Shown in pieces: positions 13,124-23,517 of a stretch of DNA of 44,103 nt (position 1 is its first letter; every line of letters starts with the position of its first letter). The notes under the pieces were generated by a model that saw only the letters and a list, made by a program, of their open reading frames with translations, was not told the DNA's origin and made no database searches. This DNA is from Lachnospiraceae bacterium (GTDB lineage Bacteria; Bacillota; Clostridia; Lachnospirales; Lachnospiraceae). The position numbers and the translations under genes are program-made. The stretch is taken from the NCBI GenBank assembly GCA_024405155.1, contig JAKSPC010000015.1, positions 1 through 44,103 on the forward strand. Reading direction: 5' to 3'.

Positions 13124-13181
13124 CCTGAAAACTTTCACAGCAAAAAGAATTGAATGAAGTACAAGAAATGTGCTTGAAAAG

Positions 13182-13218
13182 AAAGCCATTGTGTGAGAAA
13201 ATCAACAATGGCTTTTTA
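13182..13218 (+). terminator. Terminator or attenuator ahead of the NifU-like gene
   Basis: AAAGCCATTGT (13182-13192) pairs perfectly with ACAATGGCTTT (13205-13213 and following), with a T-run immediately after. It lies only about 30 bases before the start codon and 120 bases past the previous terminator, in the expected leader of the NifU-like gene, so it may be a conditional attenuator. Confidence 0.7.
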
Positions 13219-13248
13219 ATTATGCACTTTATTGAAAGGAGTATTTTC

Positions 13249-13953
13249 ATGACTTATACAAAAGAAGTTGAGATGATGTGCCCTGTGGCCCAGGGAGTTC
13301 ATCACGGCGCTGCTCCCATCCCGGAAGAGGGAAAGTGGATCCAGGCCAAAGAGATCAAAGACATTTCCGGTTTCACACATGGTGTGGGCTGGTGTGCTCC
13401 TCAGCAGGGCGCCTGCAAGCTTTCCTTAAACATTAAGGAAGGCGTGATCCAGGAAGCTCTCGTTGAGACCCTTGGCTGCTCCGGCATGACCCATTCCGCA
13501 GCCATGGCAGCAGAGATCCTTCCCGGACTTACCGTTCTGGAAGCTCTGAACACCGACCTTGTGTGCGACGCTATCAATACCGCCATGAGAGAGCTGTTCC
13601 TTCAGATCGCTTACGGCCGTTCCCAGTCCGCGTTCTCCGATGACGGACTTACCATCGGCGCCGGTCTTGAGGACCTTGGCAAGGGCCTTCGTTCCCAGGT
13701 CGGTACCATGTACGGCACCAAGGCAAAGGGACCCAGATACCTGGAGATGGCAGAAGGCTACGTAACAGGTATCGCTCTGGACAAAGACGACCAGATCATC
13801 GGCTATCAGTTCGTGAACCTTGGCAAGATGACCGACTTCATCAAGAAGGGTGACGACGCCAATACCGCATGGGAGAAAGCAAAGGGTCAGTACGGCCGCG
13901 TTGCCGATGCCGCAAAGATCATCGATCCCAGAACGGACAAAGAAGTGAAATAA
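13249..13953 (+). CDS. NifU-like iron-sulfur scaffold-type protein
   Basis: This 234-residue protein resembles the IscU/NifU N-terminal scaffold fold. Cysteines at 49, 56 and 77 lie in contexts (G-A-C-K-L-S-L-N-I and L-G-C-S-G-M-T-H-S-A-A) comparable to scaffold ligand positions, and Cys11 is extra. The long C-terminal part is unlike standard IscU. In clostridia this gene is typically paired with a GGGtGRT-family gene, as here 20 bases downstream. It may assemble or hold a cluster for that partner; the enzymatic role is not established. AAAGGAG precedes the ATG at 13249; an earlier in-frame ATG at 13150 would read through the terminator hairpin and is rejected. Confidence 0.72.
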   Translation: MTYTKEVEMMCPVAQGVHHGAAPIPEEGKWIQAKEIKDISGFTHGVGWCAPQQGACKLSLNIKEGVIQEALVETLGCSGMTHSAAMAAEILPGLTVLEALNTDLVCDAINTAMRELFLQIAYGRSQSAFSDDGLTIGAGLEDLGKGLRSQVGTMYGTKAKGPRYLEMAEGYVTGIALDKDDQIIGYQFVNLGKMTDFIKKGDDANTAWEKAKGQYGRVADAAKIIDPRTDKEVK

Positions 13954-13973
13954 GGGTTAAGGAGGAGAAAATC

Positions 13974-14984
13974 ATGGCACTTTTCGAAGGTTACGAGAGA
14001 AGAATTGATAATATCAACAAAGTCCTTAACTCCTATGGCATTAAGGACATCGAAGAAGCAAGAAAGATCACCGAGGATGCAGGTCTTGACGTTTACAGCC
14101 TCATCAAGGGGATCCAGCCCATCTGCTTTGAGAACGCATGCTGGGCATACATTACCGGTGCAGCCATCGCCATCAAGAAGGGATGCCGCAACGCAGCAGA
14201 CGCGGCAGCAGCCATCGGCGAAGGTCTGCAGGCATTCTGCATCAAGGGTTCCGTAGCAGATAACCGTAAGGTTGGTCTGGGCCACGGCAATCTTGGCAAG
14301 ATGCTTCTTTCCGAAGATACCGAGTGCTTCTGCTTCCTGGCAGGCCATGAGTCCTTCGCAGCAGCCGAAGGCGCCATCGGTATTGCCAACAACGCAAACA
14401 AGGTACGTAAGAACCCCTTAAGAGTTATCCTTAACGGTCTCGGCAAGGATGCCGCTCTCATCATTTCCCGTATCAACGGCTTCACCTATGTGGAGACCGA
14501 GTACGATCCCTACAGCAATACCGTAAAGGAAGTTTACAGAAAAGCATACTCCGACGGCCCCCGCGCAAAGGTAAACTGCTACGGCGCAAACTCCGTTCCG
14601 GAAGGCGTTGCCATCATGTGGAAAGAGAACGTTGACGTTTCCATCACCGGAAACTCCACCAATCCCACCCGTTTCCAGCATCCTACGGCAGGCACCTACA
14701 AGAAGGAGCGCATCGAAGCCGGCAAGAAGTACTTCTCGGTAGCTTCCGGCGGCGGCACGGGACGTACCCTGCACCCCGACAACATGGCAGCAGGTCCCGC
14801 TTCCTACGGTATGACCGATACCCTTGGCCGTATGCACTCTGACGCGCAGTTCGCAGGTTCTTCCTCCGTTCCCGCACACGTAGAGATGATGGGTCTCATC
14901 GGTGCCGGCAACAATCCCATGGTAGGCATGACTGTTGCAACGGCTGTTGCCATCGCAGAGGCTGCAAAGGCAGGAAAGTTCTGA
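13974..14984 (+). CDS. GGGtGRT-family protein
   Basis: This 336-residue soluble protein contains the family-defining S-G-G-G-T-G-R-T segment near residues 257-264, followed by H-P-D. It is rich in Gly and Ala, with several cysteines (for example E-C-F-C-F-L and A-F-C-I-K-G) that could interact with a metal cluster. The family is widespread in anaerobic Firmicutes but its reaction is unknown to me. It follows the NifU-like gene with an AAGGAGGAG ribosome site, so the pair forms an operon ended by a strong terminator. Codon choice favours abundant-tRNA codons, as expected for a well expressed protein. Confidence 0.82.
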   Translation: MALFEGYERRIDNINKVLNSYGIKDIEEARKITEDAGLDVYSLIKGIQPICFENACWAYITGAAIAIKKGCRNAADAAAAIGEGLQAFCIKGSVADNRKVGLGHGNLGKMLLSEDTECFCFLAGHESFAAAEGAIGIANNANKVRKNPLRVILNGLGKDAALIISRINGFTYVETEYDPYSNTVKEVYRKAYSDGPRAKVNCYGANSVPEGVAIMWKENVDVSITGNSTNPTRFQHPTAGTYKKERIEAGKKYFSVASGGGTGRTLHPDNMAAGPASYGMTDTLGRMHSDAQFAGSSSVPAHVEMMGLIGAGNNPMVGMTVATAVAIAEAAKAGKF

Positions 14985-14999
14985 TAAGAACACATGAGA

Positions 15000-15033
15000 G
15001 GATGCCGTTCCCGGCGAACGGCATTCTTTTTTT
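15000..15033 (+). terminator. Rho-independent terminator of the GGGtGRT operon
   Basis: GATGCCGTTC (15001-15010) and GAACGGCATTC (15016-15026) form a 10-base-pair stem with a 5-base loop, followed by seven T. Confidence 0.93.
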
Positions 15034-15095
15034 GTGTATTCCTTTTTTGCCCGTTCCGTGGTAAAGTGAACAAAAGTCATTTCGAGAGGGCATCC

Positions 15096-16013
15096 ATGAA
15101 TTCAGAACAGCTGAGACAATTTAAAGCCATCGCCGAGACCGGAAGCCTTACCAAAGCAGCCGAACAGCTCTATGTAACGCAGCCGGCCCTCAGCATGTCC
15201 CTTTCCAAGCTGGAGGACGAGATCGCAAGACCTCTGTTTACCAGGCAGGGAAAGTCGCTTAAGATCACGGAAAGCGGGATTAAACTTCTGGAGTATGCCA
15301 ACCGTGTGGTGGATACGCTGGACGAGGCACAGCATTACTTTAACATCAACAATCACAACGGAACGATCCGCCTGTACCGGATCGGCGGTACGGCCATTTC
15401 GCTTCTGACGGAAGGATGCTATTTCCTGCCGGATATCCGGCTGGAATCCTCCATTGTGAAAAATGAGGATATCGCCCGGGTGATGTCGTCCGGTTCCGCC
15501 GATATCGTGATCGCCGATGACAGACACGTGGAGAGCGTATTCAACAAGTATACGAAACGCGCGTTCCTGTTCCATCAGATGCTTTTACTTTCCGTACCCA
15601 AGGGGCATCCTTTATCGGAAAGAGACGAGATCTCTGCGGAAGAGCTCCCCACCATAGAGATCGCCGGCCGGAATACGCCGCTTGGTTTCAATTCCTGGAT
15701 CAATGAATTCAAAAAGGAGAACGGCATCGATTTTGAGGAATCCATGCTGTTAAATACCGTCAGCTATTTTACGCACAGAGATCAGCTGCCGGTGCCGTAT
15801 CTGATGGGCAGCTTCGGCATCGGTGTGGAATCCGGAGCCGAGTATTTCTCCAAGAGAAAAAGCATACGGGTACTGGGCAAATACTGTGAGCGGGATATAT
15901 GCGTTTACTGGAGCTCCCGGAATTCCAAAAAGATCAGTCCCGTGATCGATACCATCCGGAATAACGCCGCCGCCATCAATGAAAAAGATCAGGCCATGAA
16001 TTACGGATTCTGA
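15096..16013 (+). CDS. LysR-family transcriptional regulator
   Basis: A 305-residue LysR-type regulator. The N-terminal winged helix-turn-helix (1-65) has the family pattern L-R-Q-F-K-A-I-A-E-T-G-S-L-T-K-A-A followed by V-T-Q-P-A-L-S. The effector domain (about 90-300) is of the periplasmic-binding-protein type. The start at 15096 was chosen over 14994 because the longer frame crosses the previous terminator. The gene lies on the same strand just before a four-gene metabolic unit and is separated from it by its own terminator. Inference: it senses a substrate or product of that unit and acts at the palindrome-containing region 16086-16152. Confidence 0.88.
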   Translation: MNSEQLRQFKAIAETGSLTKAAEQLYVTQPALSMSLSKLEDEIARPLFTRQGKSLKITESGIKLLEYANRVVDTLDEAQHYFNINNHNGTIRLYRIGGTAISLLTEGCYFLPDIRLESSIVKNEDIARVMSSGSADIVIADDRHVESVFNKYTKRAFLFHQMLLLSVPKGHPLSERDEISAEELPTIEIAGRNTPLGFNSWINEFKKENGIDFEESMLLNTVSYFTHRDQLPVPYLMGSFGIGVESGAEYFSKRKSIRVLGKYCERDICVYWSSRNSKKISPVIDTIRNNAAAINEKDQAMNYGF

Positions 16014-16042
16014 CAAAAGAACGCTTCGGCCGGCAATACATG

Positions 16043-16068
16043 AGACTGCAGAAATGCGGTCTTTTTTT
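16043..16068 (+). terminator. Rho-independent terminator after the LysR gene
   Basis: AGACTGCA (16043-16050), a GAAA tetraloop and TGCGGTCT (16055-16062) form an 8-base-pair stem with one G-T pair, followed by a run of T. Confidence 0.9.
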
Positions 16069-16085
16069 GTGTTTTCAAACCGAAC

Positions 16086-16152
16086 ATATAAGTTATATTT
16101 ATGAAAACATAGATTATTGGAATGCATATAGGAATTATTCATCGTATACAAT
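16086..16152 (+). promoter_or_regulatory. Candidate LysR-controlled promoter region
   Basis: ATATAAGTTATAT (16086-16098) is a perfect palindrome about a central G, fitting the AT-rich T-N11-A style of LysR boxes. TACAAT (16147-16152) is a good -10 but no -35-like hexamer sits 17 bases before it, as is usual for activator-dependent LysR targets. ATGAA (16101) and TTCAT (16137) form a second wider dyad. Assignment to the neighbouring LysR is inference. Confidence 0.45.
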
Positions 16153-16188
16153 AGAAGTGAATTATAACCAGAATCGGAGGGCTTACAA

Positions 16189-19020
16189 ATGATCAAAAGT
16201 CTTTTTAATCAGGCAAAGGGAAAAATGCGTGTGGCAGGTGTGGCCAGCGGCAGCGGAAATACCCTGTGGGCGGCGTATGCCATGCAGAAAGAGATGGAAA
16301 AGACGTTTGAGGGATGTCCTTTTGAGATCGTAGGCATCTTTGCGGATTCCGGCGAGGCGAAATGTCTGCAGACGGCATCCGAGCTGGGGATCCCCAGCGC
16401 CTATGTGGATATCCGCAAGTTCTACGAAGAAAAGAACGCTCCTTTAAAGGATAAAAAAGTCAGGGCTCAGTACGACAGGGAAATGGTAAAGGCTCTGGCC
16501 AAATGGGAGCCGGATTTCGTCATGCTTGCCGGATACGTATGGGCAGTGACGGATGTGGTGACCGGCCGCTTCCAGGTCTACGGGGTACACCCCGGAGATC
16601 TTACCTGGCAGAAGGACGGCAAGCGTCTTCTTGCCGGCGCTAACGGCGTAAAGAGTGCTTTCAAATACAACAGACCGGAAGTCAGGGCATCTTCGTACCT
16701 GGCGACCAGCGCCATTGACGGCGGCCCTATTCTGATCACCTCCCCCGGAGTGCCGGTGGATTATACCATGCACGACAACGAGGATGACAGATTCCGTTAC
16801 TATCTGAAGAAAGTCAACGAACAGAGCCGCCTGGTAGGTGCCCGCACCACGCTGGAGATCGCAAACGGCAATTTCCAGATCGGTGACGACGGCTACTACT
16901 ATAAAGGGGAAAAGATCGAAAAAGGCATCAAGTTTGAATCCTGGGAGGAAGACAAGCCAAGGTTCCAGCTGCAGCCGGAAATGATCACCAACCCCAAGTC
17001 CATTGCCGTTCTGGGCGCTTCCAACAAGAAGACCATCGGCAACGCGGCGGTAAGAAACCTGATCGAAGCCGGTTTCAAGGGCGACATCTATGCCATCAAT
17101 ACCCGCGGGGAAGACGTGCTGGGAGCAAAGGGCTACAAGTCCGTTCTCGACGTCCCCGGTGACATCGACATGGCCATGATCTGCGTTCCCTCCCGGGCGG
17201 TGCTTTCCGTGGTGGAAGAGTGCGGAAAGAAGGGTGTCAAAGCGCTGGTGTGCATCGCCGCCGGATTCAAGGAAGTTGGCGGTGAGGGCGTAAAGAACGA
17301 AAAGAAGCTGATAGAGCTGCTTCACAAGTACGGCATGGTGATGACCGGCCCTAACTGCATGGGCGTGATCAATACCGGCAATGACATGAATGCCACCATG
17401 CTGACGGACGTGCCCCGGAAAGGAAATCTTGCCATGCTGACACAGTCCGGTGCGCTGGGCGCTGCTATGGAGGATTTTACCGGGTATTACGGCATCGGAT
17501 TCTCCATCGTAGTCTCTCTGGGCAACCAGGCGGACCTCAACATGTGCGACTTTCTTCCCATCGTGGAGGCGGATCCTAACACCAAGGTGGTGCTGATGTA
17601 CATCGAGGGGATCACGGAGCCCCTTCGTTTCAGAAATATCGTAAGCAAGATGACAAAGCCCGTCATCGTGTTCAAGGCGGGAAAGACCGCGGCGGGAGCC
17701 ACCGCTGCAAGCTCTCACACCGGTTCCATGGCCGGAAACGAGAGAGTGGCACAGGCCCTTATCCATCAGTCCGGCGCCATCGAGTGCGTTTCTCTGGAGG
17801 ACGCCTACCGTCTGGCAGCCACCCTTTCCAAGGTGGACATGATCAAAGGAAAGAGGGTCGGTATCGTTTCCAATACCGGCGGTATCGACATCATCATGGC
17901 GGACGCACTCACCAAGAAGGGATTCCAGCTTCCCCAGATGCCGAAAAAGTGCGTGGAGTACTTAAAGCCTCAGCTCTTTGCGGAAGCTGCCGTGAGGAAC
18001 CCCATCGACATCGTGGCGGCGGCGACGCCGGAGCAGTACAAAGTGGTGGCGGAAGTCATGACCACCTGCGGCACCTATGACGCAGTGCTCTTTATCGTGG
18101 TACCGGCAGCCACCGTGGAATCCGACGATATTGCAAGAGCAATGGTGGAACCGGCACAGAAGTCCGAGATCCCCGTTCTTTCCTGTTTCTACGGTCCCTA
18201 CATTGCGGGCAAGGGCGCGCAGGTGATGAAGGAGAACAACATCCCCACCTACGAGTATCCGGAAAAGATGGCGGATATGCTGTCCTACATGGTGAAGGAG
18301 CCGACCCCGAAGTATAAGGGAAAGATGCCGAAGTATAAAGAAAAGGAAAGAAAAGCCGCGCAGGCGGTGATCGCCGCATCCGAGAGCGGCAAGTATCTTT
18401 CCGTAAAGGATTGCGAGACCGTGCTTTGCGGTTATTGCATTCCCATCGCTCGTTCCGGCTACATGAAGTGTGAAGGCTGTGCCGACAGGGTGGAGCTTAC
18501 CTTCCCGGTGGCCGCAAAGATCGATCATCCCGATATCGTGCACAAGGCCGACGTGGGCGGCGTGGTGCTGGGCATCAAGAGCAAAGAGGAACTTAAGAAA
18601 CTTTATCAGGAGTGGGAGAAGAAGTTCCCCGGCCTTAACGGCATTTTCCTTCAGGAAATGGTGAACGGCAAAGTGGAACTGATCATCGGAAGCACTTTCG
18701 ATCCCACCCTTGGTCATGCCGTGCTCTGCGGCATGGGCGGGACGCTGGTGGAACTGATGAATGATACCAGCGTAGGCCACGTGCCCGTATCTCCGGACAC
18801 GGCGGCAGAGATGGTGGAGAAGCTGCATTACTATCCGGTGCTGAAAGGATACCGCGGCGCAAAGGGCGTGGATATCAAAAGATACGAGGAACTGATCCTC
18901 AGAGTGGATCAGATGCTTCGGGACAACCCGGAGATAAAGGAACTGGACATCAATCCGCTGCTTTTCGATAACGAAAGGAACGATTTCGTGGCAGTGGATT
19001 TCAGGATCAAGAAAAGATAA
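16189..19020 (+). CDS. PurN-like formyltransferase domain fused to ADP-forming acyl-CoA synthetase
   Basis: A 943-residue multidomain enzyme. Residues 10-235 resemble glycinamide-ribonucleotide/formyl-THF transferases (ASGSGNTLWAA, LAGYVW, then V-H-P-G-D-L and A-I-D-G-G-P-I-L). The catalytic Asn that normally precedes the His is replaced (Y-G-V-H instead of N-x-H), while His and Asp persist. From 264 comes a CoA-binding Rossmann domain (P-K-S-I-A-V-L-G-A-S), then the succinyl-CoA-synthetase-like region with the phospho-His motif S-S-H510-T-G-S, and a C-terminal ATP-grasp domain (about 720-943). The synthetase part should interconvert acyl-CoA + ADP + Pi with acid + CoA + ATP. GGAGG precedes the ATG. 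The acyl substrate and the role of the N-terminal domain are unknown. Confidence 0.83.
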   Translation: MIKSLFNQAKGKMRVAGVASGSGNTLWAAYAMQKEMEKTFEGCPFEIVGIFADSGEAKCLQTASELGIPSAYVDIRKFYEEKNAPLKDKKVRAQYDREMVKALAKWEPDFVMLAGYVWAVTDVVTGRFQVYGVHPGDLTWQKDGKRLLAGANGVKSAFKYNRPEVRASSYLATSAIDGGPILITSPGVPVDYTMHDNEDDRFRYYLKKVNEQSRLVGARTTLEIANGNFQIGDDGYYYKGEKIEKGIKFESWEEDKPRFQLQPEMITNPKSIAVLGASNKKTIGNAAVRNLIEAGFKGDIYAINTRGEDVLGAKGYKSVLDVPGDIDMAMICVPSRAVLSVVEECGKKGVKALVCIAAGFKEVGGEGVKNEKKLIELLHKYGMVMTGPNCMGVINTGNDMNATMLTDVPRKGNLAMLTQSGALGAAMEDFTGYYGIGFSIVVSLGNQADLNMCDFLPIVEADPNTKVVLMYIEGITEPLRFRNIVSKMTKPVIVFKAGKTAAGATAASSHTGSMAGNERVAQALIHQSGAIECVSLEDAYRLAATLSKVDMIKGKRVGIVSNTGGIDIIMADALTKKGFQLPQMPKKCVEYLKPQLFAEAAVRNPIDIVAAATPEQYKVVAEVMTTCGTYDAVLFIVVPAATVESDDIARAMVEPAQKSEIPVLSCFYGPYIAGKGAQVMKENNIPTYEYPEKMADMLSYMVKEPTPKYKGKMPKYKEKERKAAQAVIAASESGKYLSVKDCETVLCGYCIPIARSGYMKCEGCADRVELTFPVAAKIDHPDIVHKADVGGVVLGIKSKEELKKLYQEWEKKFPGLNGIFLQEMVNGKVELIIGSTFDPTLGHAVLCGMGGTLVELMNDTSVGHVPVSPDTAAEMVEKLHYYPVLKGYRGAKGVDIKRYEELILRVDQMLRDNPEIKELDINPLLFDNERNDFVAVDFRIKKR

Positions 19021-19038
19021 GGAACAGGAGGAGAAGTT

Positions 19039-20244
19039 ATGGAGTACAAGTTCAACAGAAGGATCTCCGGCGTAAAGCCTTCACCGATCCGTGAGATCAT
19101 CAAGATGGTCATCGCGAATCCCACCATCATTCCGCTTTCTACGGGAAACCCTTCTATGGAATCCATCCCGGTGGAGCAGATCCACGAGATCTCCGATGAG
19201 ATCTTTAAGACCCGGGGCGGGCAGGCGCTCAACTACGGCGCAACCGAAGGTTACATTCCGCTGATCGAGACCACAAAGAAGAGACTGAAAGACGCCTACG
19301 GCATCGGCAGAGATTTTGATGACGTGATCATCACCACCGGCGGGCAGCAGGGCCTGTATCTTCCGCCGAGCGTTCTGTGCAACGAAGGCGACACCGTGAT
19401 CGTGGAGAGCCCCACTTTCGTTTCCGGCATCATCGCCATGAAAGAGAACGGCTGCCACGTGGTAGGCGTGGAGATGGACGATGAAGGCATCAGGATCGAC
19501 GGCCTTCTGGATGCCATCAAAAATAACGATAATGTAAAGATGCTGTATCTTATCCCCACGTTCCAGAACCCCAAAGGAACGACCATGAGCCTTGCACGCA
19601 GAAAAGAAGTTTACGATATCTGCGTGAAGAACAACATCATCATCCTGGAGGACAATCCTTACGCCGAGCTTCGTTTTGACGGCGAAGAAGTGCCGCCCAT
19701 CAAGTCTTTCGACGAAGAAGGCATCGTCATTTACAACGGTTCCTACTCCAAGGTGCTTTCTGCCGGCATGAGACTGGGATTCACCTGTGCGCCGAAGCCG
19801 ATCATGCAGAAGCTGATCATCGGAAAGCAGGGCGCGGACTGTCATTCCAATCTGTTCTTCCAGATGGTCACCGACGAGTTCTTCAAGAAGTACGGCTGGG
19901 ACAACCACGTGAAGCTTATCCGTGAAGTCTGCGAGCACAAGGCAAAGTTCATGCTTTCCTGCCTGGACAAATACATGGATAAGAGAGTCACCTGGACAAA
20001 GCCCCAGGGCGGCCTTTTCCTGTGGTGCACCCTTCCCGACGGACTGGACGGCTATGATTTCTCCAAGTTTGCCTGCGAAAAGGGCGTGGCTGTGGTCCCC
20101 GGATGCTGCTTTATGGTGGATGACGACGCCATCTGCTCTGCATTCCGTCTGAACTATTCTACTCCCAGCGACGAGAACATCGAAAAGGGCGTGAAGATCC
20201 TGGCAGCAGCGGCAGCGGAATACATCGATTCCCATACAAAGTGA
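19039..20244 (+). CDS. PLP-dependent aminotransferase, class I/II
   Basis: A 401-residue fold-type I aminotransferase close in pattern to the 2-aminoadipate/aromatic (LysN, MocR catalytic domain) group. It shows the N-terminal S-T-G-N-P, L-N-Y-G-A-T-E-G-Y, I-T-T-G-G-Q-Q-G-L, the P-T-F-Q-N-P-K-G segment with the cofactor-contacting Asn, and the Schiff-base lysine K238 in N-G-S-Y-S-K-V-L, with R-L-G-F after it. It should convert an amino acid to its 2-oxo acid or the reverse. AGGAGGAG lies just upstream, and the gene is 18 bases after the acyl-CoA synthetase fusion. Substrate is not determinable; context suggests it feeds or drains the homocitrate-synthase-like enzyme encoded next. Confidence 0.88.
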   Translation: MEYKFNRRISGVKPSPIREIIKMVIANPTIIPLSTGNPSMESIPVEQIHEISDEIFKTRGGQALNYGATEGYIPLIETTKKRLKDAYGIGRDFDDVIITTGGQQGLYLPPSVLCNEGDTVIVESPTFVSGIIAMKENGCHVVGVEMDDEGIRIDGLLDAIKNNDNVKMLYLIPTFQNPKGTTMSLARRKEVYDICVKNNIIILEDNPYAELRFDGEEVPPIKSFDEEGIVIYNGSYSKVLSAGMRLGFTCAPKPIMQKLIIGKQGADCHSNLFFQMVTDEFFKKYGWDNHVKLIREVCEHKAKFMLSCLDKYMDKRVTWTKPQGGLFLWCTLPDGLDGYDFSKFACEKGVAVVPGCCFMVDDDAICSAFRLNYSTPSDENIEKGVKILAAAAAEYIDSHTK

Positions 20245-20262
20245 TCTTTGGAGGTAAATAAA

Positions 20263-21495
20263 ATGAGTTACAACTTTAAGGTAGACGGCAAGTGGTGGGT
20301 CAGCGAAGCCAACTTCGCGGACGAAGTGACAAAGGACTTCCATTTCCCGGAGAAGATCGAGATCCTGGATACCACCCTTCGTGACGGTGAGCAGGAGATC
20401 GGCATCATCTTCACAAAAGAGGAGAAAGTGGCTATCGCAAAGAAGCTGGATGCGGCCGGCGTGCAGAGGATCGAGGCAGGCTGCCCCGCCACCAGTGACG
20501 AGGACGCTGCAGCCATCAAGGCGATCTGCGATCTGGGCCTCAAGGCAGACATCTACTGCTTTGTCCGCGGCGTGCTTTCCGATATGGATCTGGCAAAGTC
20601 CTGCGGTGTTGACGGTGTCATCATGGAGATCCCCGGGAGCCCCCAGATGCTGGGCGGCGGCATGAAGTGGGGCGTGGAGAAGGCTGTGAATTCCGCCATC
20701 GAGGCCACCAGGCATGCAAAAGAGCTGGGACTTAAGATCACTTATTTCCCCTCCGACGGTTCCCGTGCCAACATCGATTTCCTCTGCGACATGCTGAATG
20801 CGGTCCTGGATGGCGGCGGATACTTTGATTCCGTAGCTCTCGTGGATACCTTCGGTGCTTTCTCACCCGAGGGCGCAGCCTACATGACAAGAGAAATCTT
20901 AAAGAGAGTGGGCAAGCCCGTAGAGGCACATTTCCACGAGGATTTCGGTCTTTCCGTGGCAACCACCATCGAGGCATTGAAGGCCGGCGCCTCCGTTGCT
21001 CACGTTACCGTAAACGGTATCGGTGAGAGAGCAGGCAGCTGCCCCATCGAGCCCCTGGTAATGAGCCTTCAGTGTCTGTACGGACAGGATACCGGCATCA
21101 AGTACGATCAGCTGATCCCGCTGGCAAAGCTGGTGGCAGAGCTTTCCGGAAAGCCCATCCCGCCCACAAAGGCCATCGTAGGAGACCGTCTGTTCGGATG
21201 GTCCACCGGTCTTCCCGTAGGCTACTACAGAAAGTCCAAGGACGTGAACCCGCTTATCATGATGCCGTATCATTTCACCATGACCGGCCAGCATGAGCCC
21301 TACATCTACATGGACAAGAAATCCGGCGGTGCCAACGTGGAGTTCTGGAACGAGAGACTGGGCCTTAAGGCTATCGAGGACAAGGATCTGGTAAAGGCTC
21401 TCTTAAAGAAGATCAAGGAACTTTCCATCGAAAAGAAGGCAGTCATCACCGACGAGGAATATCTGGCGTTCTACAACGAGATGTTCGGTGAATAA
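20263..21495 (+). CDS. Homocitrate/isopropylmalate synthase-like DRE-TIM metallolyase
   Basis: This 410-residue TIM-barrel enzyme belongs to the Claisen-condensation-like branch of the HMG-CoA lyase superfamily. It has L-D-T-T-L-R40-D41-G-E-Q, the metal-binding H223-F-H225-E-D, and N-G-I-G-E-R-A-G-S in place of the usual E-R-A-G-N. Members condense acetyl-CoA with a 2-oxo acid (homocitrate, citramalate, isopropylmalate, Re-citrate synthases), or run the lyase direction. There is no LeuA-type regulatory domain; the last 80 residues are a helical tail. GGAGGT lies 9 bases before the ATG at 20263, favoured over an earlier in-frame ATG. Its pairing with an aminotransferase and acyl-CoA synthetase hints at a dedicated 2-oxo-acid pathway. 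Confidence 0.82.
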   Translation: MSYNFKVDGKWWVSEANFADEVTKDFHFPEKIEILDTTLRDGEQEIGIIFTKEEKVAIAKKLDAAGVQRIEAGCPATSDEDAAAIKAICDLGLKADIYCFVRGVLSDMDLAKSCGVDGVIMEIPGSPQMLGGGMKWGVEKAVNSAIEATRHAKELGLKITYFPSDGSRANIDFLCDMLNAVLDGGGYFDSVALVDTFGAFSPEGAAYMTREILKRVGKPVEAHFHEDFGLSVATTIEALKAGASVAHVTVNGIGERAGSCPIEPLVMSLQCLYGQDTGIKYDQLIPLAKLVAELSGKPIPPTKAIVGDRLFGWSTGLPVGYYRKSKDVNPLIMMPYHFTMTGQHEPYIYMDKKSGGANVEFWNERLGLKAIEDKDLVKALLKKIKELSIEKKAVITDEEYLAFYNEMFGE

Positions 21496-21554
21496 GTATT
21501 TATTGGCATTGTGCCATAAATATAAATCCCCAAAAATAATATAGGAGGTATGTT

Positions 21555-22925
21555 ATGGGTAACAACGAAACAAAAGAGCCCAAGAAGCGTGAGCAGTGGT
21601 CTTCCAGCTTAGGTTTCATCCTGGCGACTGCAGGTTCTGCTGTTGGTCTCGGCAACATCATGAAGTTCCCCTGGATGACAGGTAAGAACGGTGGTGCGGC
21701 ATTCCTTTTCACCTACATCATCATCATGCTGATCGTAGGCGTAGGTATGCTTCTTTGCGATTTCCTTCTTGGACGTAAGGGAAAAGCTAACGCAGTGGCA
21801 ACTTACACGAAGCTGTTCGGCGCAAAGTTCAAGTGGATGGGATATCTGGGAATCTTCTCAGCACTCCTTGCACTTTCCTACTACGCTGTATTCGGCGGCT
21901 GGATGATCCACTACATCATCAATTCCTTCGGCACTCTGGCCAACATCAACCCCGATGCCGTTGGTGATTTCTTCGGCGCGACCGTAAGCGGGACCGTTGT
22001 TCCCCTTATCGAGTCTGCCATCTTCCTTGCCGTTACCGCTGTGATCGTTGTCGGCGGTGTTAAGGGAGGAATCGAGAAAGCCAACAAGATCATGATGCCC
22101 GCTCTGATCGTGATCCTTCTGATCCTCATCGTAAGAGCTCTGACTCTTCCGGGTGCAGGCGCAGGTATCTCTTACTACTTAAAGCCCGACTTCTCACTGA
22201 TCACCTTCCCCGTGATCGCGGCTGCAGTAGGACAGTGCTTCTTCTCACTGAACATCGGTACCACCGGTATGGTCAACTACGGTTCCTACTTAAGTGATCA
22301 CGAGGATGTGTTCAAGTCCACTTCCAAGATCGCTTTCACGGACTTCGCAGTTGCATTCCTGGCAGGCCTTATCATCATCCCGTCAGCATTCGCATTCAAC
22401 ATCGACGTAGGATCAGGCCCCGCACTTCTGTTCGTCACCATGCCCTCACTGTTCGCACAGCTTCCGGCAGGCGGACTGTTCTGCTTCCTGTTCTTCGTAC
22501 TCCTTCTCTTTGCTTCTCTGACTTCATCCATCTCTATCCTGGAGATTTACGTTCCTTACGCAGTAGAGAGCTTCAAGGGAATGAGCCGTAAGAAGGCATC
22601 CATCATCGGTGCCGTTGCCTGCTGGATCGCCGGTATCCCGGTTTCCTACAGCTTCGGTATCTGGGGCGACGTCCGTATCTTCGGTATGGACATCTTCACG
22701 TGCTATGATAACTTCATCTGCATCATCGCTTACCCCCTGATCTCCCTGGTAACGGCTATCCTCGTTGGCTGGGTATGGGGCAAGGACAATGCTCTTGGTG
22801 CTATCACCAACAACGGCGAACTGGAGACCAAGTGGTATCACAAGCTCTGGTTCTTCCTTGTGAAGTACATCTGCCCGATCTTCCTTCTCCTGGTAGTTCT
22901 TACCGGATTCGGAATCATCAAATAA
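21555..22925 (+). CDS. NSS-family sodium-dependent amino acid symporter
   Basis: A 456-residue membrane protein with about 11 helices and the neurotransmitter:sodium symporter signature in TM1 (L-A-T-A-G-S-A-V-G-L-G-N-I-M-K-F-P-W), which forms the sodium and substrate sites, and the partly unwound TM6 region later. Bacterial members (Tyt1, MhsT, LeuT) carry hydrophobic or aromatic amino acids. AGGAGG precedes the ATG. It closes the four-gene unit and is followed by a strong terminator, so it likely imports the amino acid acted on by the aminotransferase. A bulged hairpin (TTTATTGGC/GCCATAAA, about 21500-21525) sits in the gap before it and may trim expression or stabilise the message. Confidence 0.88.
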   Translation: MGNNETKEPKKREQWSSSLGFILATAGSAVGLGNIMKFPWMTGKNGGAAFLFTYIIIMLIVGVGMLLCDFLLGRKGKANAVATYTKLFGAKFKWMGYLGIFSALLALSYYAVFGGWMIHYIINSFGTLANINPDAVGDFFGATVSGTVVPLIESAIFLAVTAVIVVGGVKGGIEKANKIMMPALIVILLILIVRALTLPGAGAGISYYLKPDFSLITFPVIAAAVGQCFFSLNIGTTGMVNYGSYLSDHEDVFKSTSKIAFTDFAVAFLAGLIIIPSAFAFNIDVGSGPALLFVTMPSLFAQLPAGGLFCFLFFVLLLFASLTSSISILEIYVPYAVESFKGMSRKKASIIGAVACWIAGIPVSYSFGIWGDVRIFGMDIFTCYDNFICIIAYPLISLVTAILVGWVWGKDNALGAITNNGELETKWYHKLWFFLVKYICPIFLLLVVLTGFGIIK

Positions 22926-22946
22926 CTGTTGCAAACAGTTAAAAAT

Positions 22947-23002
22947 GCTGCAGCATGCTTTTGGCCGGTACCCCCTGACCAACTGCCATGCTGCAGCTTT
23001 TT
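22947..23002 (+). terminator. Rho-independent terminator of the LysR-linked operon
   Basis: GCTGCAGCATG (22947-22957) pairs with CATGCTGCAGC (22987-22997), an 11-base-pair stem with a 29-base loop, then TTTTT. Each arm is itself partly palindromic (GCTGCAGC). It ends 18 bases before the folA start. Confidence 0.8.
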
Positions 23003-23019
23003 GAAAGTGAGTAAAACAT

Positions 23020-23517
23020 ATGCTTGGACTGATCGTGGCACGTTCGAAAAACAACGTGATCGGAAGAAACGGAAAGACTCCGTGGAAAATAAAGGGAGAA
23101 CTGAGCCAGCTGAGGGATCTCACCATGGGAAACGTGATCATCATGGGGCGCAGATCCTATGAAGAGATCGGCCATCCGTTAAAGGGACGGACCAATATCG
23201 TGGTTTCCAATACGAAGGAATTTACGGGAGAAGATCTGATCACTGTGCATTCTCTGACGGAAGCTTTAAAACTGGCCGGTGACAGGGATGCTTTCGTTAC
23301 AGGCGGCGTACGGATGTTTGAAGAGGCGATCCCCATGGTGGATAAGATGTACATTACGGAGATCGACCTTACGGTGGAAGACGGAGACGCGTTCTTCCCG
23401 GCCTTTGATCCGGAAGACTTTGACCTTACGGTCGGAGAGACCGCAGGAGATGAGATACGTTATACCAGGACCTGCTACACAAGAAAAAAACGCGGAAAAG
23501 AAAAATTCCATCCGTAA
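23020..23517 (+). CDS. folA: Dihydrofolate reductase
   Basis: A 165-residue DHFR that reduces dihydrofolate with NADPH. Family marks are I-G-R-N-G-K-T-P-W (14-22), the active-site acid Glu27 in the position where E. coli has Asp27, I-I-M-G-R-R-S-Y-E-E-I-G-H (40-52), and V-T-G-G-V-R-M-F-E-E-A for the second NADPH contact, with Phe where Tyr is usual. The ribosome site is weak (GAAAGTGAG). The last codons (G-K-E-K-F-H-P) lie inside the first of three tandem repeat units that run towards uvrB, so the C-terminal tail may have been reshaped by that repeat. No thyA is in the window. Confidence 0.9.
   Translation: MLGLIVARSKNNVIGRNGKTPWKIKGELSQLRDLTMGNVIIMGRRSYEEIGHPLKGRTNIVVSNTKEFTGEDLITVHSLTEALKLAGDRDAFVTGGVRMFEEAIPMVDKMYITEIDLTVEDGDAFFPAFDPEDFDLTVGETAGDEIRYTRTCYTRKKRGKEKFHP

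Follow-up and report, generated by a model that had tools for sequence, protein, structure and literature searches.

A rare, mostly clostridial gene unit joining a formyltransferase-acyl-CoA synthetase fusion to a DRE-TIM enzyme without the Claisen triad: a candidate for energy-conserving amino-acid catabolism

What is accomplished by four adjacent genes that encode a PurN-like formyltransferase fused to an ADP-forming acyl-coenzyme A (CoA) synthetase, a class I/II aminotransferase, a DRE-TIM enzyme and an NSS sodium symporter? They lie in a contig of a Lachnospiraceae bacterium (GenBank assembly GCA_024405155.1, contig JAKSPC010000015.1), whose whole analysed stretch of 44,103 nucleotides is here called the window. 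We propose, with a probability of roughly 0.4 for the reading as a whole, that the unit serves an energy-conserving amino-acid catabolism by way of a 2-oxo acid, in which the DRE-TIM enzyme would cleave a C-C bond and ATP would be gained through acyl-CoA or formyl-CoA. All four genes are on the + strand, with intergenic gaps of 18, 18 and 59 bases:

16189-19020, + strand: fusion of a PurN-like head and an ADP-forming acyl-CoA synthetase body, open reading frame of 943 residues (Pfam/NCBIfam)
19039-20244, + strand: class I/II aminotransferase, open reading frame of 401 residues (PF00155, Aminotran_1_2)
20263-21495, + strand: DRE-TIM (HMGL-like) enzyme, open reading frame of 410 residues from the ATG at 20263 (PF00682, 201.8 bits); an alternative upstream start, TTG 20248, is likewise open
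21555-22925, + strand: NSS sodium symporter, open reading frame of 456 residues (PF00209, SNF)

Is the neighbourhood more than an accident of one genome? The window's genome (G000) holds a single copy of the unit, and the fusion is found in 2 of 344 genomes of its order, in 2 of 398 genomes of a phylum sample (G000 and G122; E <= 1e-200), its own genome counted in both cases, and, in the order to which the Sedimentibacter-labelled G791 belongs, in 4 of 249 genomes, that one included. A scan of species genomes gave at least nine fusion loci, at least seven of them new. Altogether 13 fusion loci were compared: the window, L035 (the same as L045), L040 (the same as L046), L041, L042, L043, L044, L047, L048, L049, L076, L077 and L078. 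They are not all independent: L044 is almost the same as L076, L041 is close to L042, and the first 83 residues of the fusion are shared by L048 and L049. The named hosts are labelled Eubacteriales, Clostridia, Oscillospiraceae, Sedimentibacter, Defluviitaleaceae, Spirochaetaceae (two) and Candidatus Sumerlaeota, this last being G122, which the genome collection places in the window's own phylum. Within the available flank, the DRE-TIM gene is linked to the fusion in 12 of the 13 loci, and seven hold the full set. The check across relatives that a first-pass annotation of this DNA had called for thus yields a conserved neighbourhood, which rules out a chance association: the unit is a rare but recurring gene set of a few, mostly clostridial genomes.

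Gene order and strand vary between the loci, while gene content is constant, in two versions. Seven loci (the window, L041, L042, L044, L076, L077 and L078) have the aminotransferase and the NSS symporter, and five (L040, L043, L047, L048 and L049) have a TRAP transporter, accompanied by a D-2-hydroxyacid dehydrogenase in two of them (L040 and L049). Because the aminotransferase and symporter are exchanged for TRAP, and partly for the dehydrogenase, the most economical interpretation is that both versions meet at a 2-oxo acid. The closest DRE-TIM genes and the fusion share the same genomes, namely the same 4 of 249 in the one order and the same 2 of 398 in the phylum sample, by a cut between closest and other DRE-TIM genes that was chosen after seeing the E-values (gaps of 8e-200 to 7e-162 and 4e-196 to 9e-178). 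Among 24 other genomes of the window's genus, some incomplete, no close DRE-TIM gene was found (best E 1.7e-44, 29% identity). A recent foreign origin was considered as the cause of this patchy occurrence and set aside, since the unit's GC content (about 0.50-0.56, measured in 2-kb steps) falls inside the window's range of 0.47-0.58 and composition thus shows no sign of it.

What kind of enzyme is the DRE-TIM protein? Its overall score places it, among the matches listed, with the isopropylmalate/homocitrate synthases, below the NCBIfam cut-offs (LEU1_arch 292.2 of 484.75, NifV 259.2 of 462.9; best 25 of 27 matches), and the first-pass annotation had given it homocitrate-synthase-like acyl-CoA chemistry. 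Its residues contradict this. In an alignment of 45 family members (L044 and L076 being identical and L047 a fragment), the equivalent of Glu164 is present in 0/45 against 10/11 controls, that of His318 in 0/45 against 11/11, and that of Tyr333 in 2/45 against 10/11; a smaller comparison gave 0/24, 0/24 and 1/24 for the family against 11/11, 11/11 and 10/11. The 11 controls were drawn from relatives and named by sequence reading as NifV-, LeuA-, CimA- and Re-citrate-synthase-like, and the apparent loss of Glu in the CimA-like control L018 in the larger alignment is probably due to an alignment shift. The metal and 2-oxo-acid residues Asp36, Arg40, Asp41, His223 and His225 are kept in 45/45 members, Glu122 (44/45) and His247 (43/45) are newly conserved, and most members carry an extension at the N-terminus that contains W and N(Y/F). 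In a tree that took 23 family sequences, with L047 omitted and before a further 21 were added, these 23 form one side of a well-supported branch (99/98).

In Claisen-type synthases the Glu, His and Tyr serve the enolisation of acetyl-CoA; for methylthioalkylmalate synthase, His388 has been proposed as the base, with Tyr399 stacking on it, and of the variants at Arg89, Glu227 and His388 only E227Q and H388N kept activity (PMC11532901). That the DRE-TIM enzyme is nonetheless an alkylmalate synthase of the homocitrate synthase kind, extending a 2-oxo acid with acetyl-CoA, would agree with its closest overall matches and with the universal retention of Arg40, Asp41, His223 and His225; we consider it very improbable in view of the lost triad, of those variants, and of a window unit without downstream alkylmalate enzymes. 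With the triad gone, the protein is, judging by its residues, misnamed and should not be called a homocitrate synthase. An orthology to lysine or leucine biosynthesis, which the first-pass annotation had named as a refuting result, was not found, and leucine, lysine or citramalate biosynthesis is ruled out by the triad loss together with the absence of partner genes. Re-citrate synthase was likewise ruled out, as three controls, which we take to be likely Re-citrate synthases, keep Glu and His. In a plasmid collection, the best 25 of 347 records from one search were annotated as citramalate, isopropylmalate or homocitrate synthases or hypothetical proteins, or fell in unannotated places, with identities of at most 37.3%; of the other searches of that collection, one gave no match and one gave seven records, four annotated purN and the rest unannotated.

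What surrounds the triad-less enzymes elsewhere? The surroundings of 43 family copies were read within 7 kb, several loci ending within that distance; the duplicates L045, L046 and L076, copy L008, the partial one in L132 and unfetched places of the phylum sample (20 regions were fetched) are left aside, and all counts are descriptive, without a background rate. Enzymes that make or change 2-oxo acids lie near 34/43 copies: D-2-hydroxyacid dehydrogenase (15), aminotransferase (8), the UxaA/galactarate-dehydratase type (7) and, more rarely, ketol-acid reductoisomerase (3), PanB (2), the fumarase/tartrate-dehydratase type (2) and dihydroxy-acid dehydratase (1); a D-2-hydroxyacid dehydrogenase or aminotransferase is within reach of 23/43. 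Carboxylate or amino-acid transporters adjoin 27/43 (TRAP 11, NSS 6, TTT 5, TAXI 3, DASS 3, KdgT 2). Representative enzymes were checked by Pfam or NCBIfam, while TTT, TAXI and KdgT were named by sequence reading; butyrate kinase, PanB, ketol-acid reductoisomerase, dihydroxy-acid dehydratase and one SucD scored above NCBIfam cut-offs, and the dehydrogenases, LarA and the UxaA protein stayed below them.

Modules that turn acyl-CoA into ATP occur near 16/43 copies (ADP-forming synthetase, or ACD, 8; SucCD 5; Ptb/Buk 3). The presence of three such types, the ACD fusion among them, is what a retro-Claisen reaction would lead one to expect, in which an activated 2-oxo acid is cleaved directly by the DRE-TIM enzyme with CoA itself, giving one acyl-CoA and one other acid, and leaving the fusion, SucCD or Ptb/Buk to make ATP. 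We regard this as unlikely though with an appreciable chance: evidence of CoA binding is wanting in the family, the modules may just as well handle an acyl-CoA that an oxidoreductase produces at a later step, and 27/43 members have no ATP module nearby, although for three of them (L047, L048 and L049) the locus is one of the fusion loci and is truncated where its contig ends.

Several of these surroundings deserve mention in their own right. In L036 (7994-16506) a DRE-TIM relative is clustered with a 2-hydroxyacid dehydrogenase, TRAP, and the ornithine-pathway thiolase OrtA/OrtB, both above cut-off. In L085, L086 and L087 a triad-less DRE-TIM gene is joined by phosphotransbutyrylase/butyrate kinase and a UxaA/SAF dehydratase pair, with TRAP or TTT in L086 and L087, which looks like another uncharacterised hydroxy-acid fermentation. 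L121 and L127 have a glycyl radical enzyme and its activator near DRE-TIM genes, the enzyme of L121 passing the broad subfamily model TIGR01774 and falling below every equivalog cut-off listed. Small Cys-rich proteins, QueG-like by sequence reading and matching Fer4 by Pfam in L035 only, stand beside DRE-TIM or fusion genes in L036 (13745-14578), L080 (7151-7852), L129 (10977-12523) and L035 (8378-9235), and in L133 (3939-4903) the 2-hydroxyacid dehydrogenase next to the DRE-TIM gene is spread over two open frames that overlap.

What could the fusion contribute? Its PurN-like head spans residues 1 to about 255 and its synthetase body residues about 264 to 941, with the Pfam domains Formyl_trans_N, CoA_binding_2, Succ_CoA_lig and ATP-grasp_5. 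The body is complete, and the acyl-CoA-to-ATP module of the first-pass annotation is supported. Formyl_trans_N is weak in the window (23.6 bits with a cut-off of 26.1; 27 bits in a second search) and reaches 56.1 bits in the homologue of G122. The same architecture is found in 10 full-length loci, and tblastn aligns both parts in relatives. The closest solved structure is an ADP-forming 4-hydroxybutyrate-CoA ligase (8wzu, E 2.7e-119), PurN/GART being closest to the head. NCBIfam cut-offs are unmet for acetate ligase (459.8 of 567.15 bits), 4-hydroxybutyrate ligase (485.5 of 1300) and PurN (49.5 of 150.1), the sole formyltransferase model listed at E <= 1e-3. His134 and Asp177 of the head are kept in 10/10 full-length fusions and, with an Asn at 132 in nine of them, presumably correspond to the Asn-His-Asp catalytic set of PurN (positions read from an alignment); His510 of the body, also in 10/10, lies in the motif SHT(G/A) and is presumably the phospho-His.

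Since PurN itself formylates an amine, the head might formylate or deformylate an amino compound or aminoacyl-CoA, CoA being bypassed, with the body handling the resulting acid; the fusion of G122, which lies near amidohydrolase, M20 and hydantoin-racemase-family genes, could be read in the same sense. We think this quite unlikely, as no amine substrate suits both versions of the unit, the one for amino acids and the one for hydroxy acids, and as fusion to a CoA enzyme favours CoA as the acceptor, as has been proposed for HypX. The neighbours of G122's fusion also offer a lead, and only that, to glyoxylate or glycine as substrate.

In G000, which is 93% complete, Formyl_trans_N matches only a 353-residue, Fmt-sized frame and the fusion, and that search showed no separate PurN-sized gene; across the eight genomes searched there are three matches in three and two in five. 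The first 83 residues of the fusion are identical in L048 (7786-8034) and L049 (5517-5765), both at contig ends, while the DNA over the compared stretch is not; the loci belong to two Spirochaetaceae drafts with different upstream clusters and possibly represent two copies in one organism or close strains.

Is there a link to one-carbon metabolism, a connection with folate and formate that the first-pass annotation had missed? Formate-tetrahydrofolate (THF) ligase (Fhs) adjoins the unit in four of the seven aminotransferase and NSS loci (L041, L042, L044 and L076) and is the only Fhs found in genomes G788 and G789. A channel of the FocA-type formate/nitrite family occurs in L044 (by Pfam) and L076 (by similarity, 99.6% identical), which count as one lineage. 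L041 and L042 also encode a further synthetase of this family that lacks the PurN head (by Pfam for L041), which fits a division of labour between formyl-CoA and another acyl-CoA. FolD was found in 10 of 12 genomes.

ADP-forming synthetases are reversible, so the fusion could also run in the assimilatory direction, spending ATP to activate formate or another acid and passing the formyl group to THF as a substitute for Fhs, the unit then being biosynthetic. The Spirochaete drafts G793 and G794 would suit this, as each, besides the fusion, has two matches to the formyltransferase family and neither shows Fhs or FolD, so that another source of formyl-THF is wanted. These drafts may be incomplete, however, and the fusion gene of each is truncated by the end of its contig; moreover, the aminotransferase with its importer, like the dehydrogenase with TRAP, looks catabolic, and Fhs already adjoins the unit in four relatives. 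The assimilatory direction seems to us rather unlikely.

How would the catabolic route then proceed? The NSS symporter would import an amino acid with sodium and the aminotransferase would convert it to a 2-oxo acid, the real substrate of the pathway; in two relatives a D-2-hydroxyacid dehydrogenase behind TRAP would yield the 2-oxo acid from a hydroxy acid. Like the rest of its superfamily, the DRE-TIM enzyme would bind the 2-oxo acid through its metal and Arg, and it would cut a C-C bond in the manner of an aldolase or decarboxylase without the Claisen Glu/His/Tyr, possibly by means of Glu122 and His247. A one-carbon part of the product might be kept as 10-formyl-THF, from which the PurN-like head would pass the formyl group to CoA, and the synthetase body would turn the acyl-CoA into formate, or another acid, and ATP. 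Fhs and the formate channel beside the unit in some relatives would serve the same one-carbon pool. The direction, the substrate, the reaction of the DRE-TIM enzyme and the formyl-CoA intermediate are the conjectural parts of this scheme; observed directly are the gene content and its linkage, the co-occurrence, the domain composition and which residues are lost or retained. If a 4-hydroxy-2-oxo acid were cleaved, several enzymes acting at earlier steps (UxaA, IlvD, PanB, dehydrogenase and aminotransferase) would be explained, and an aldehyde would be freed, in the simplest case formaldehyde, and trapped by THF. An acid giving such a compound, for instance homoserine, is the foremost, though weak, guess for the substrate; some solved TRAP receptors nearest the DctP of L049 bind erythronate or pantoate, a weak pointer to 2,4-dihydroxy acids.

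The aminotransferase is related to kynurenine/2-aminoadipate and archaeal multi-substrate aminotransferases (1x0m, E 3.4e-82; 2egy; 4gdy), with NCBIfam cut-offs unmet in the best 25 of 65 matches. That of L077 comes from another subfamily (24.5% identity to the window's; the two subfamilies are 21-27% alike over the long alignments), and since a different subfamily fills the slot there, transamination itself seems to be needed. The nearest structure to the window's symporter is 4us3 (E 1.6e-88), which we take to be MhsT, followed by LeuT (about 1e-43); 6/7 homologues have Asn and Thr at two sites of transmembrane helix 6, presumably Ser256 and Phe259 of LeuT, suggesting a binding pocket that differs from that of LeuT. 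Uptake of an amino acid and its transamination to a 2-oxo acid, as first envisaged, are supported by the two aminotransferase subfamilies, or the dehydrogenase, that occupy this slot, and the earlier outline of uptake, transamination, C-C step and ATP remains plausible.

Several observations weigh against the proposed catabolism. G122 carries the fusion and the DRE-TIM gene unlinked, the latter on another contig (L118). Fhs is not beside the unit in the window, L077 or L078, none was seen in the five TRAP-type loci, some of them short, and G793 and G794, drafts of unstated completeness, show neither Fhs nor FolD. If formyl-THF is the one-carbon carrier, Fhs alone could make ATP, and the fusion would be partly redundant. 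Three of the five TRAP-type loci (L043, L047 and L048) show no dehydrogenase, and 20 of the 43 family copies have neither dehydrogenase nor aminotransferase nearby. Finally, the window's head has Gly132, whereas the other 9/10 full-length fusions have Asn there, so formyl transfer is possibly impaired in the window.

How is the unit expressed? The features around it are as follows:

15096-16013, + strand: LysR-type regulator (PF00126, 71.2 bits)
16042-16063, + strand: terminator-like hairpin between the LysR gene and the unit (pattern scan and fold)
22947-23002, + strand: terminator hairpin and T run behind the NSS gene (sequence and fold)
23020-23517: dihydrofolate reductase-like gene, directly past the unit's terminator (NCBIfam cut-offs unmet in the best 25 of 30 matches)

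For the region behind the NSS gene (22926-23012) the computed folding energy is -33.9 kcal/mol (z -4.15; 0/200 shuffles equally low). Open reading frames, families and fold together bear out four genes in close order, 16189-22925, with a terminator behind; the pattern scan misses this terminator, its hairpin loop being too long. Over 14900-23100 the scan gave 9 terminator-like sites (8.3 in shuffles) and 8 promoter-like sites (6.3), which is uninformative by itself. The region behind the LysR gene (16030-16075) folds at -15.1 kcal/mol (z -3.38; 2/200 shuffles equally low), and since its own hairpin ends that gene, LysR is probably transcribed separately. The first-pass annotation was right that LysR precedes the unit, and both are on the same strand, while the link between them is weak: besides the separate terminator, none of the 11 other loci compared holds a LysR match at E <= 1e-8. 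A LysR regulon was considered and set aside. A MerR-XRE-cupin type regulator stands at six fusion loci (L041, L043, L044, L048, L076 and L077), and a relative of it (39%) adjoins the DRE-TIM gene of G122 in L118. The dihydrofolate reductase-like gene and the PurN-like head make a folate neighbourhood possible. Upstream of LysR, at 13150-14984, lie a protein that matches NifU weakly (21 bits against a cut-off of 188) and a member of the GGGtGRT family (PF14057, 623 bits), with a strong terminator behind them at 14996-15030 (z -6.66).

Why does the unit matter? A search of the open-access articles of PubMed Central gave no description of the fusion or the unit. Named by score alone, the DRE-TIM gene becomes an isopropylmalate/homocitrate synthase, which its residues contradict, and as 45 such sequences were compared, similar genes are probably misnamed elsewhere too. 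The gene set turns a candidate amino-acid catabolism into a directly testable case. The formyl-CoA route, if true, would add a new enzyme to one-carbon energy metabolism and might serve as a tool for assimilating formate. In it the head would make formyl-CoA from 10-formyl-THF and CoA, and the body formate, CoA and ATP from formyl-CoA, ADP and Pi. The double claim that the fusion is a second biological coupling of folate-bound one-carbon units to ATP, and that its partner belongs to a new group of DRE-TIM C-C lyases with a Glu/His pair in place of the triad, is doubtful though it has a real chance; such a group, from clostridial and Spirochaete drafts, would open up fermentations of amino, hydroxy and sugar acids.

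How does the unit compare with known systems? The window's DRE-TIM enzyme shares fold family, TLRDGEQ motif and metal and 2-oxo-acid residues with isopropylmalate, homocitrate and citramalate synthases, and differs from them by the triad loss, the N-terminal extension and its separate tree group. With 4-hydroxy-2-oxovalerate aldolase (DmpG/BphI type) it may share a reaction type, a metal-held 2-oxo acid enolate; it scores 67.6 bits to TIGR03217 (cut-off 286) and lacks what we take to be the aldolase His after RDG. The fusion has all domains and the SHT(G/A) motif of ADP-forming acetyl-CoA and 4-hydroxybutyrate-CoA synthetases, while it falls below their NCBIfam cut-offs and adds the PurN-like head. 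Should the formyl-CoA reading hold, the fusion would interconvert formyl-THF, formate and ATP as does Fhs, an unrelated protein, but by a route through CoA. The nearest precedent is HypX, where a folate formyltransferase domain is likewise fused to a CoA enzyme and formyl-CoA is the proposed intermediate (PMC6802093). HypX has a C-terminal domain like enoyl-CoA hydratase where the fusion has an ACD instead, and because this body is an ADP-forming acyl-CoA synthetase, ATP would result rather than the CO of HypX.

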